NCBI GenBank assembly: GCA_001795615.1
Contig: MGKI01000012.1
Location: 1-50,590 of the forward strand
Origin: Candidatus Yanofskybacteria bacterium RIFCSPLOWO2_01_FULL_42_49
GTDB lineage: Bacteria; Patescibacteriota; Minisyncoccia; 2-02-FULL-40-12; GWA2-44-9
DNA length: 50,590 nt
Direction of reading: 5' to 3'
Shown here: positions 44,210 to 49,824 of the stretch, in pieces
How positions within the stretch are numbered: position 1 is the first letter of the stretch
Layout: each line of letters opens with the position of its first letter
Notes under the pieces: generated by a model
What the model was told of the DNA's origin: nothing
What the model saw: the letters and a program-made list of their open reading frames with translations, nothing else
Databases searched by the model: none
Made by a program: the position numbers and the translations under genes

Positions 44210-45112
44210 TCATGGCTGTTTAATGGAATCAATAAATATCTGGATATCTTCAAAAGAAAGAGCGGTGGAAAGAATCGAATCTGATTCAGTCATCATTCCT
44301 GCAACTTCGCCTTTATTATTCAACAAAGGACCGCCGGAAAATCCGTGTCTGGCCGGCTTTAGGAGCCTGAATTTTTTTTGAATTCCAAGCGACTTAAAAG
44401 ATTCGACAAAAGTAATGGCATTTTCAACTACAGATCGTATCGGATCGGACATGACACTTTTCTCATCACCGTCCGGTAAATAATAAGAACCCTGCACGGA
44501 GGAAAAACCGCTTGAGTATGTCACCTCTCCCACCCGAGCTCCGGTTGCGAGACTTAGTCCCAGTACCGGAATTTTTTCGGCGGATCTAAAAGCAATAATA
44601 TCCAGATATTCTCCAAGAGGACTCATGGCAACAGGCTCAATCGGAAACTCTAAACGACCGGTTGAAGTTTCCACTATTACTACAAATTTCTGTTCGTAAT
44701 CCGAGGCATAAATTATTCCGTTTTGGTCAATTTCAATTATTGCTCCGCAATGGCTTCGCAAATTCATTGCCGTATCGACCAAGAGATGCCTCGCGCTTAT
44801 GATATAACCGGATTCTTTTTCAATAAAACCGGAACCCTGTGTCTTTGTTTTTGCACAGGGAGAATTCATAAAAAGAACGGCTTGCGGGTTTTCCAAATTT
44901 GATTCCTCTGTTTTGTTTAAAATATGATTTGAAAATCTGGCCTCAATAATAAATGTGTTTTTCTGGGCCTCAAAAACCTTTTTTGGAAGTTTGTGCTCAG
45001 AGAGCATAATCTCGCCTTGCGGATAAACGGTATCGAACTGCTGTCCGAAAGACTCCTCGACGTTAACAAGACTCATGGCTGCGACCACGAGTAATTGCAG
45101 GACCAGCCTCAC
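44210..45112 (-). CDS. Trypsin-like serine protease (S1 family fold)
   Basis: 300 aa; signal peptide; GSGFIEKESGYIISARHLL and HGFSGGPLLNNKGEVAGM. Confidence 0.75.
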   Translation of the reverse strand: MRLVLQLLVVAAMSLVNVEESFGQQFDTVYPQGEIMLSEHKLPKKVFEAQKNTFIIEARFSNHILNKTEESNLENPQAVLFMNSPCAKTKTQGSGFIEKESGYIISARHLLVDTAMNLRSHCGAIIEIDQNGIIYASDYEQKFVVIVETSTGRLEFPIEPVAMSPLGEYLDIIAFRSAEKIPVLGLSLATGARVGEVTYSSGFSSVQGSYYLPDGDEKSVMSDPIRSVVENAITFVESFKSLGIQKKFRLLKPARHGFSGGPLLNNKGEVAGMMTESDSILSTALSFEDIQIFIDSIKQP

Positions 45113-46576: not shown

Positions 46577-47423
46577 TAGCGGATTTTATTACCGTTGCGA
46601 TATCTTCAGACGAAATTATGAAAGAAAACAAAGTGTCTCTTTCAATCATAAGCCCGATTACTTGACCGGCATAGTTGAATACTGGGCCTCCAGAAAATCC
46701 GGGCTGTGTCGGGCCGGCCAGACGATAGAGTTTCTTTACACCAGCCGAAGCTACGATTTTATTCTGAAGAAAAGCGAGAATAACATGCTCTGAAGTAAAT
46801 TTAATTTCATCAGAGATAAATGAAACCCCTTCTCCATCTGCTCTGTGTTAGTGAGTGTTTTGGCTCGTAAAACCGCTTACATAAACCTTATCGCCTGACC
46901 TTACTTTGTTTGACAGCCCAAGACTTTTAACAGGGAGGTTTTTGGTGGGTTTAAACAGCATGACATCAAGGTAGGTGTCCAACGGACCCATTGCTACAAC
47001 AGTAAGGGGATATTCTTTTCGTTCAGTCGCCGTATCTAATACTGCAAAAAACCGATAATCATAACCTACGCCTCGGGGAATACCGTTTTTATCCAGAGAA
47101 AACGGCTCGCCAAACCTTCCGGCTAATTCCATTACTGTTTCAACAAGAAGATGTCTGGCACTTACGACATAATTAGAATCTTTTTCAACAAAACCGGATG
47201 CTTGAACGATTATGGGTGGGGCATCGGGCTGATTTTTTTGAAAAAATTCGCCCCTGATTTTTATAATATTTTGCTGAGATAAGTAGACGGCGGAAGAAAG
47301 CGGTCTCTCCGCAATCGCCGTAAGTCCGTTGGGGTAAATCGTTTCGAACTGTTGTCCAAAAACTGAATCGGTGAAAACAAGCAACATACCAAGAACTAAT
47401 ATGGGAATCGGCGCTGGTTTCAT
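46572..47423 (-). pseudogene. Trypsin-like serine protease paralogue interrupted by an in-frame TAA
   Basis: 191-aa ORF ends ..VSGFTSQNTH*; the same frame continues HRADGEGVSFISDEIKFTSEHVILAFLQNKIVASAGVKKLYRLAGPTQPGFSGGPVFNYAGQVIGLMIERDT.., matching the C-terminal half of the 300-aa paralogue. Confidence 0.7.
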
Positions 47424-47518: not shown

Positions 47519-49153
47519 TTATGTATTATAATATGATAAGAACAAATAATTGCGGGTATAGTACAGTGGTAGTACGACTCCCTTCCAAGGAGTAGACACG
47601 AGTTCGAATCTCGTTACCCGCTCCAGTATGAAACGTTCGGGAAATTGACCGACCTGATTGTGGGCGACGCCAAGCGTCGCCCATTGATTCGGTGAGGTAA
47701 TCTCTGAATCGCTCGGCCCGATGAATCGGGCCTCGCGGTTGGCCAAGATGAGGTTCGACCCAAAGATTCCTTTGGCGATAACCTTTTTATCAAAAAGGTT
47801 ATCGCCTCTTGCGATTTTATCTACATTTAGAGCCTCATTTATCCATTTTCTCATCGGTTCTACCCAAGAGAATTGCTTTTGTTCAAGGGTGAGTATTTTT
47901 TCTTCTATGGTCTTTTTTTCTGACATTAGTTTGGCCTTCTTTTCAAGGTAGGATTCTCTATCAACATCCTGGTCTAAATAACTATCCAAGAGTCTTTGGA
48001 GCTTGGCCTTGATATCGGATATTTGATCTTTGGATTCTTGAACAAAAGCCAATGACGAGCTTTTGGTGTCCTGTTCTTCCGAACTAATCTTGTTTAATAA
48101 ATAATCAGCCCATTCTTTTTTCAAAGAAAATTTTTGAAGGAGATTTGATATTTGTCTATCCAAAACCTCTTGTCTTACATTGGGTTCATTGCACTTTATT
48201 GTCTTTGATTTTTTGGAGCAGTGATAATATGTGTAGTAATGGATATTTCCATTCTTTTGTTTCTTTATCTTGTATTCTCCGGTTATCATCATCCCGCAAT
48301 TACAAAACAATAATCCGCAATATGGTTGGGGGTTATTTCCATTTACATCTTTGTCTTTTTTCTGCGGCCTTCCTCTGCTATGCAATATTTCTCTCACTCT
48401 ATCAAAAATTTTCTTTGAGATTATGGGCCGATGTTTTCCCTCGTAAATTTCTCCGGCATATTTAAAGTGTCCGTAATAAAAAGGATTTGAGAGGATAAAT
48501 GAGGCCTTTGATATGTGGATTCTCTTTCCGGTTTTGGAGATTATGCCGTGATCTTGGAGATAGTTGGATATATCTTCTAATCTGGAATTTCCTTGAGCAT
48601 AAATATCAAATATTTCTTTAACTATTTTGCCTTTCTTTTTATCAACGATTATTGTTTTATTTCTTGAGTCGTTTATATATCCAAGAGGAGTACGTGAGGG
48701 ATATTCTCCCCTTCTTACTTTTTGTCTTAATCCTCGCTTGGTATTTTCGGAAAGAGAATCCACATAATATTTAGATTGGCCAAAAGCAATATTCAGCATG
48801 AACTTGCCTTGAGGTGTGGATTCAAACCAGAATTGCGGAAATTTAAGGGCAAGTATTTTGTTACAATCTAAAAAATATATTATTTTACCGCCATCTATGG
48901 AATTACGAGCCAACCTGTCGGGATGCCAAGCGATAATTCCGTTGGCTTCGCCATTTTCTATTCTATCGAGCATGGAATTAAAAAGTGGTCTTCCTGGAAT
49001 CTTTGCCGATTGCTTTTCAATAAGAACATCGACGATTTCGAGATTTTCTCGCTTGGCAAATTCCCGCAATTCTGTAATTTGAGCTTCGATAGATAGAACT
49101 TGCTTGTCTTCGACGTCTGTTGATTTTCTGGCATAGAGAAAATATTTGTTCAT
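47519..49153 (-). CDS. Large serine recombinase
   Basis: 544 aa; YARKSTDVEDKQVLSIEAQ, GIIAWHPDRLARN, recombinase domain, zinc ribbon-like CxC..C, coiled coil; C-terminus runs antisense through tRNA-Gly. Confidence 0.92.
   Translation of the reverse strand: MNKYFLYARKSTDVEDKQVLSIEAQITELREFAKRENLEIVDVLIEKQSAKIPGRPLFNSMLDRIENGEANGIIAWHPDRLARNSIDGGKIIYFLDCNKILALKFPQFWFESTPQGKFMLNIAFGQSKYYVDSLSENTKRGLRQKVRRGEYPSRTPLGYINDSRNKTIIVDKKKGKIVKEIFDIYAQGNSRLEDISNYLQDHGIISKTGKRIHISKASFILSNPFYYGHFKYAGEIYEGKHRPIISKKIFDRVREILHSRGRPQKKDKDVNGNNPQPYCGLLFCNCGMMITGEYKIKKQKNGNIHYYTYYHCSKKSKTIKCNEPNVRQEVLDRQISNLLQKFSLKKEWADYLLNKISSEEQDTKSSSLAFVQESKDQISDIKAKLQRLLDSYLDQDVDRESYLEKKAKLMSEKKTIEEKILTLEQKQFSWVEPMRKWINEALNVDKIARGDNLFDKKVIAKGIFGSNLILANREARFIGPSDSEITSPNQWATLGVAHNQVGQFPERFILERVTRFELVSTPWKGVVLPLYYTRNYLFLSYYNT
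47552..47625 (+). tRNA. tRNA-Gly (anticodon TCC), CCA encoded
   Basis: Acceptor gcgggta/tacccgc, anticodon stem-loop actcc-cttccaa-ggagt, T arm gttcgaatc, 3' tCCA. Confidence 0.92.
47621..47758 (+). repeat. 138-bp inverted repeat, left arm, starting at the tRNA-Gly 3' end
   Basis: Reverse complement of 49469-49606 with about 3 mismatches by eye. Confidence 0.92.
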
Positions 49154-49186
49154 AGTGATTAATTATATCAAAATAACTTTTTGCAA

Positions 49187-49229
49187 CACACCAAAAAGCT
49201 CTGGCAGAAAGCCAAAGCTTTTTGGTGTG
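49187..49229 (-). terminator. Terminator-like hairpin
   Basis: cacaccaaaaagct..agctttttggtgtg inverted arms. Confidence 0.5.
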
Positions 49230-49305
49230 GACCCGGCGGGACTTGCACCCGCTTATCCGAGTGGTAACAACGGAATGTTACTATATACGTCACGGGCCCG
49301 GATCC
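49228..49305 (-). tRNA. tRNA-like element with non-canonical D/anticodon region
   Basis: Minus strand: acceptor GGATCCG/CGGGTCC, discriminator A, T arm GCGGG-TGCAAGT-CCCGC; anticodon-like stem GTAAC/GTTAC with 8-nt loop; no convincing D arm. Confidence 0.4.
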
Positions 49306-49468
49306 ACGGGAGTAATTTTAGTATAGAAAAAGCCCTCTTTCAAGGGCCATTTCTATACCACTCGGGTTTGTCCGTGATGCTACGCAACATACCGTTGTTA
49401 TTAACAGTATAGCATGGCCGATATCCACATGTCAAATTTTCTAAAAATCTCTAAAATCGCAAGAGATT

Positions 49469-49606
49469 TCGAACCTCATCTTGGCCAACTGCGAGGCACG
49501 ATTCATCGAGCCGAGCGATTCAGAGATTACCTCACCGAATCAATGGGCGACGCTTGGCGTCGCCCACAATCAGGTCGGTCAATTTCCCGAACGTTTCATA
49601 CTGGAG
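49469..49606 (-). repeat. 138-bp inverted repeat, right arm
   Basis: Reverse complement of 47621-47758. Confidence 0.92.
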
Positions 49607-49824
49607 GGATTATACGAACAGATTAGAACTCATTTTATCAAAAATCTCTGACCAAAGGAAGCCGCCTTTTTTATACTCGCTTGGGCGGCTCTCATTTCAG
49701 ATTTCGCTTTTTGGATTTGTGTATCAGATTTGGTAAAATAATAATAAAGTTTGAGAGGATTTTTTCGTGGACGGCAAATGGACTTTAGAACCAAAAACAA
49801 GTAAAACTAAGAAAAATATAAGGG

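Follow-up and report, generated by a model that had tools for sequence, protein, structure and literature searches.

The window analysed here is a stretch of 50,590 nt that constitutes the whole of contig C12 in the 807-kb, 14-contig genome of Candidatus Yanofskybacteria bacterium RIFCSPLOWO2_01_FULL_42_49. It carries a tRNA-Gly gene, a large serine recombinase (LSR) gene on the opposite strand, a leader upstream of the latter and, cut by the contig end, part of a further gene (Table 1). By its domain set the recombinase is a member of the large serine recombinases, with Pfam matches above the cut-offs to Resolvase (PF00239, 7e-22), Recombinase (PF07508, 5e-15) and Zn_ribbon_recom (PF13408, 7e-7). 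The A118 integrase was among the solved structures nearest to it, and its closest relatives are mostly from Patescibacteria. A scan of IMG/VR returned no relatives, while plasmid and phage collections contained only distant integrases, 23–29% identical. When the element region was searched against Rfam, the tRNA alone scored above threshold. Elsewhere in the window, on the minus strand, 44210–45112 and 46580–47423 are tandem paralogous genes that share a 74% identical stretch and look trypsin-like by eye, the second apparently interrupted by a stop near 46848.

A repeat search confirmed the two inverted arms that a sequence-only reading of the window had pointed out. They are 138 nt long, 98% complementary with a few base differences, and spaced 1710 nt apart, and a search of the whole genome with one arm finds the other at 1e-63, a match far beyond chance. 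The tRNA position given by ARAGORN likewise bears out the claim that the left arm begins 5 nt inside the 3′ end of the tRNA-Gly (C72, T73, C74, C75, A76; C74-C75-A76 are 47623–47625). The arms had also been said to bracket the recombinase, which is true of the right arm only: the recombinase frame, running from 49153 to 47519, crosses the left arm, and the final 33 codons before its stop are antisense tRNA-Gly plus flank (RVTRFELVSTPWKGVVLPLYYTRNYLFLSYYNT). Pairing resumes beyond the arms for a further 26 nt (47806–47831 with 49440–49465), past a 47-nt segment that has no counterpart in the right arm; inspection by eye shows the same gap in other relatives, among them L015 and L034.

Table 1. 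Features of the element in the window (positions of the whole stretch; strand relative to the sequence as presented).
Feature	Position	Strand	Basis
LSR, integrated form	47519–49153	−	Pfam domains, reading frame
tRNA-Gly(TCC), target gene	47552–47625	+	ARAGORN; Rfam RF00005, 74.8 bits
attL core CTC (tRNA positions 72–74), crossover within it	47621–47623	+	common to attL, attP and probable attR
tRNA-side Y arm (half-site of attL), doubling as coding sequence for the recombinase C-terminal region	47621–47758	−	repeat, frame and site comparison
47 nt with two short palindromes, at gene 3′ end, missing from right arm	47759–47805	−	sequence comparison
Recombinase leader	49154–49439	−	promoter by eye, RNA fold, comparison with L032
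Y arm of internal attP, inverted copy of 47621–47758	49469–49606	+	repeat and site comparison
F half-site of internal attP	49607–49664 (about)	+	profile matches; second identical copy
Cargo gene cut by contig end: C-terminal part of Ig-like (Big_13) protein, probable membrane segment	49825–50590	−	

Comparison with relatives showed that the arms, here called Y, each form the recombinase-side half of an attachment site, the two sites being inverted relative to each other. The junction at the tRNA reads tRNA-core-Y and is an attL, whereas the junction upstream of the LSR reads F-core-Y and is an intact attP. F borders the right arm on its outer side, belongs to the same element, and has a consensus of about AAAATAgGTTCGAGC..GTCGTA.A....CAC, found in elements with sequence outside the upstream arm. 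The core CTC recurs at the internal attP (49604–49606) and at a second F of the window genome, which lies beside pyrH on contig C8 (G000:C8:530–590; 61/61 identical). To judge from its sequence, this second F is probably the attR (F-core-chromosome) of the window element. The cargo arc would then presumably be divided between C12 and C8, continuing to C8:1–529, such that attL and the probable attR lie on separate contigs whose join is not proved by synteny with G002. The element is larger than the cassette first noticed: next to it comes a cargo arc with an F copy at each end, the two in inverted orientation. G002, the one same-genus genome holding pyrH, was also considered as an empty site and set aside, its tRNA-Gly being in the other orientation to pyrH and accompanied by its own Y and F remnants. 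Further, F resembles the tRNA T-arm, with a GTTC motif 4 bp closer to the core in the tRNA than in F; this likeness may be due in part to coding, and the conservation of F may also reflect DNA binding.

For element L132, at a tRNA-Arg, the two flanks were joined and then searched in relatives. They proved to be contiguous in G238, where the tRNA-Arg reads ...GGGCGCAC/AAAAAAATCGAGG (the slash marks the junction), while the occupied genome G062 reads ...GCGCAC/CAGAATC and ...TTCGCAC/AAATATAAAATCGAGG. In this one case the junctions are thus borne out by a relative's empty site, with a shared core of about 3–4 nt. The empty tRNA-Arg of G238 encodes no CCA, which is supplied by the element. The empty site predicted for the window genome (...CCCGCTC/TAAACA) likewise lacks CCA, as does the probable attR (...CCCTC/TAAACA), and C75-A76 of the tRNA-Gly probably derive from the element. 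Integration of attP into attB at a very short core, yielding attL and attR, is the pattern of a large serine recombinase, and the presence of both ends, a relative's empty site and cargo marks a discrete integrative mobile element.

A scan of GTDB genomes yielded 61 loci related to the LSR, mainly in many lineages of Patescibacteria. More than 20 relatives have an inverted arm upstream of the LSR gene, often 100% identical over 94–150 nt. The arms start 3–8 nt inside the tRNA 3′ end, exactly 101 nt separate LSR residue 476 from the tRNA in about half of the relatives, and the targeted tRNAs belong to 15 isotypes. With a sequence-only model of F, run over 40 genomes, F was found in outward-pointing pairs 1.5–15 kb apart or at contig ends. 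Thirteen complete elements in 9 other genomes (L125–L127, L129–L134, L136, L138, L140 and L142) read tRNA - Y - LSR - Y - core - F - cargo - F - core - chromosome, and in most of them the arms approach 100% identity; the Y arms of L138 are too diverged for scoring, and in L034 the Y arms have diverged (74%) and the F arms have not. The same structure occurs at locus L152 of a closed one-contig genome of 785,860 bp. Several contigs begin in F, and do so at roughly the k-mer length of their assembly (k141 for L013 and L021; SPAdes for L026), which fits F being present twice. Among 145 genomes sampled from the whole phylum, 24 gave a match to F alone (E <= 1e-4, strict filters), probably a lower bound for elements with this type of F. 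All of this evidence comes from assembled genomes, where anatomy, target, one empty site, tail conservation and fixed orientation can be read directly. The open-licence literature searched held no description of such elements, or of such recombinases with a tRNA or attP, and the family is apparently undescribed.

The cargo differs from element to element and includes Type I restriction-modification (L133), a C5 methylase with Z1 and Vsr (L130), an MvaI/BcnI endonuclease with LexA and a methylase (L141), an IrrE-like protease with a helix-turn-helix protein (L126), HydF with a radical-SAM HydG-like protein of hydrogenase maturation (L132), an ArsP permease with an ArsR-like regulator (L134), an ABC transporter (L140) and YcaO (L135). 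In the window, the truncated cargo gene encodes the end of an Ig-like surface protein. Cargo units without an LSR are L135, L137, L139, L141 and a second unit in L131. Among these, L137 and L139 are F-cargo-F units of 3.6 and 14.8 kb next to tRNA-Arg and tRNA-Pro, respectively, and may be mobilised in trans or decayed. Older Y-like sequence beyond attR in L134 (the same element as L015) suggests repeated landing at one tRNA.

Cumulatively, these findings make it probable that the repeats belong, as Y halves, to the two inverted attachment sites in an LSR-driven composite integrative element. From the assembled sequences we infer the circle, its excision, inversion and the function of the tail. 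The excised element would be a circle in which two identical, oppositely oriented attP sites (F-core-Y) split a recombinase arc from a cargo arc. The LSR would join one attP to the tRNA 3′ end at positions 72–74, creating attL (tRNA-core-Y), with the second attP staying inside and attR (F-core-chromosome) left at the far end of the cargo. Such an arrangement would make sense of an otherwise puzzling repeat by placing it in an element family that is widespread.

The LSR gene contains attP within its 3′ coding end, so integration alters the protein. Read through Y and core into F, the LSR frame encodes a conserved tail in 19 of 21 elements, with a stop after 12–15 codons; the exceptions are L022, in which F is cut by the contig end, and L055. 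The native tail of the window element is GLYEQIRTHFIKNL plus stop (plus strand, 49607–49651), and other F-encoded tails are SLYNEIRTFFEKNY and RLFDEIRTFFERN, each followed by a stop. Pairwise codon differences in F are synonymous in 30% of cases in the LSR frame vs. 21% and 9% in the other frames, the invariant Arg of the tail is written CGA or AGA, and attR copies code the same tail in 10 of the 11 tested. The tail of the integrated LSR is antisense tRNA, typically ..GFEP.. or ..GIEP.., and annotators should read C-termini such as 'GFEPV' in these recombinases as antisense tRNA, not as family sequence. Before integration, then, the LSR would end in the conserved F-encoded tail and afterwards in an arbitrary antisense-tRNA one, and we infer that, with the element in place, the exchanged tail lowers or alters the activity of the LSR. 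The inverted second attP would let the LSR arc turn and restore the native tail, which is the role we propose for the duplicated site.

The sequence-only reading had proposed a candidate self-inverting cassette, in which recombination between the arms by the LSR would turn the LSR gene over repeatedly. The repeats are indeed real, equal and opposed, they carry inverted recombination sites that flank the segment (F-core-Y and tRNA-core-Y), and inversion is geometrically possible and would bring back the conserved tail; moreover, the arms are near identical in many diverged elements. Free flipping is not supported by the relatives. Of the 58 with sequence at the LSR 3′ end, 57 have that end facing a tRNA gene (55 counted automatically, with L037 and L041 added separately), vs. 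about half predicted for a freely flipping cassette, and the exception, L072, is a fragment of 32 residues. These relatives do not show both orientations, no resolved relative has the LSR 3′ end joined in frame to F, and at the upstream arm most contig breaks occur on the side towards F. L128 resembled a flipped element and was rejected, since its recombinase belongs to a different subfamily and is not in frame with F. The sole hint of both junctions is L047, in which tRNA-Phe is joined to the 5′ side of the gene and 22 nt of the same tRNA lie at its 3′ side; this case is ambiguous, and the assembly may mislead. We consider a cassette of this kind unlikely.

Within the composite integrative element, the single orientation itself calls for a cause. 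Two equivalent attP sites predict both LSR orientations upon integration and essentially one is found, a bias that could stem from asymmetry of the sites, from selection or from a self-terminating ratchet. In the ratchet, which we regard as rather doubtful, the LSR with its native tail would go on recombining, its reactions including inversion of the LSR arc between attL and the internal attP. It would stop when the 3′ end of its gene comes to lie against the tRNA and the antisense tail silences the enzyme. If true, this would explain how a single orientation arises from two equal attP sites, why both sites stay the same and why selection acts at the protein level on the coding end overlapping attP. 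As standard serine integrases are limited to attP × attB, inversion by attL × attP is not expected without a cofactor.

The other explanations fare worse. A plain insertion sequence that ends at the arms, the recombinase being its serine transposase and the arms its 138-bp terminal inverted repeats, would account for one gene between two long inverted repeats; it is very improbable, as the conserved F continues outside the right arm in relatives and a second F lies beyond the cargo region, and for L132 it is refuted by an empty site in which the tRNA is joined to sequence beyond the second F. The alternative first offered to the cassette, two opposed remnants of independent nested integrations, draws on accretion that does occur (the older Y-like sequence in L134, and the second cargo unit of L131 with its Y remnants), but we reject it as barely credible given that more than 20 independent elements have the same arm pair, gap and outer F, most of them at nearly 100% identity. 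Least probable of all is an assembly artefact (a false palindrome), for although contigs often break at inverted repeats of about the k-mer length, and those of many relatives do stop at this point, the structure recurs in many independent assemblies and in the closed one-contig genome, and the arms differ by a few bases.

Parts of the composite integrative element are familiar from other systems. The FLP/FRT inverted repeats of the yeast 2-micron circle, with their recombinase sites, split a small circle into two arcs; the predicted circle of the window element would share this anatomy, but it differs in recombinase class, in chromosomal integration and in giving no evidence of copy-number amplification. 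Bacterial and archaeal tRNA-associated integrative elements, including those of the SSV type, also target the tRNA 3′ end, using tyrosine recombinases and longer direct att repeats, and SSV-type viruses alter their integrase gene on integration. The window element, in contrast, uses a serine recombinase and a core of about 3 bp; its attP is present twice in inverted orientation, and its cargo occupies an arc of its own. Phage large serine integrases of the A118/LI type share the Resolvase, Recombinase and zinc-ribbon domains and the attP × attB reaction that yields attL and attR at a short core, whereas use of the tRNA 3′ ends of many isotypes, an inverted duplicate attP and an attP in the coding end of the recombinase set the window element apart. 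The zinc ribbon of serine integrases is shifted by 5 bp between attB and attP (PMC3783163), and the 4-bp displacement of GTTC between tRNA and F resembles that shift, a parallel that is only suggestive. In the integration-dependent immunity of mycobacteriophage BPs and its relatives, attP lies within a gene and integration changes the C-terminus of the protein (PMC4557955). The gene reported for BPs is the repressor, whereas in the window element attP sits in the recombinase gene, whose product gains an antisense-tRNA tail. An attP in the recombinase's own end with an integration-dependent tail would make a simple, testable switch. Through these elements very small, presumably host-dependent Patescibacteria can acquire restriction-modification systems, transporters and genes for hydrogenase maturation next to tRNA genes. 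Genome engineering, too, might find a use for a recombinase family whose targets are the 3′ ends of tRNAs from at least 15 isotypes.

The LSR leader has a sigma70-like promoter, recognised by eye (−35 TTGACA, 49435–49430; −10 TATACT, 49411–49406), and its RNA is strongly folded (z = −8.2), with a hairpin immediately ahead of the start codon. The leader of L032 is 77% identical to it. Both contain a tRNA-like acceptor and T-arm (window, about 49228–49311, minus strand; L032, 2402–2474); the 'tRNA-Ala' that ARAGORN calls in L032 is this segment of the recombinase leader and not a target tRNA, and the program calls none in the window leader. A pseudoknot-like pairing, in which a loop strand of 7–20 nt pairs just 3′ of a first stem of 6–15 bp, is common to LSR leaders of differing sequence (the window, L012, L014, L016, L017, L019, L021–L024, L027, L034, L039, L040, L044, L048–L050, L064 and L069). 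It exceeded all 30 dinucleotide shuffles in 22 of 34 leaders, in a few of them by a narrow margin, and in the window itself was reached by 3 of 30 shuffles. The pairing had no match in Rfam, and the leader is, on these predicted folds, a candidate new regulatory RNA of the recombinase.

A second recombinase subfamily (L128, and L005–L007 in the window genome) has its own arms and another conserved leader; in G079 its member L128, with no recognisable tRNA, adjoins an F pair of the first kind. L049 (Gottesmanbacteria) and L058 (a Woesearchaeota MAG) share the same F-core-Y context at the same locus position, and one of the two bins is probably contaminated. Finally, a family element (L028) lies at the end of a 252-kb contig in a 2.2-Mb MAG labelled Deltaproteobacteria, reflecting either transfer outside Patescibacteria or a mixed bin.
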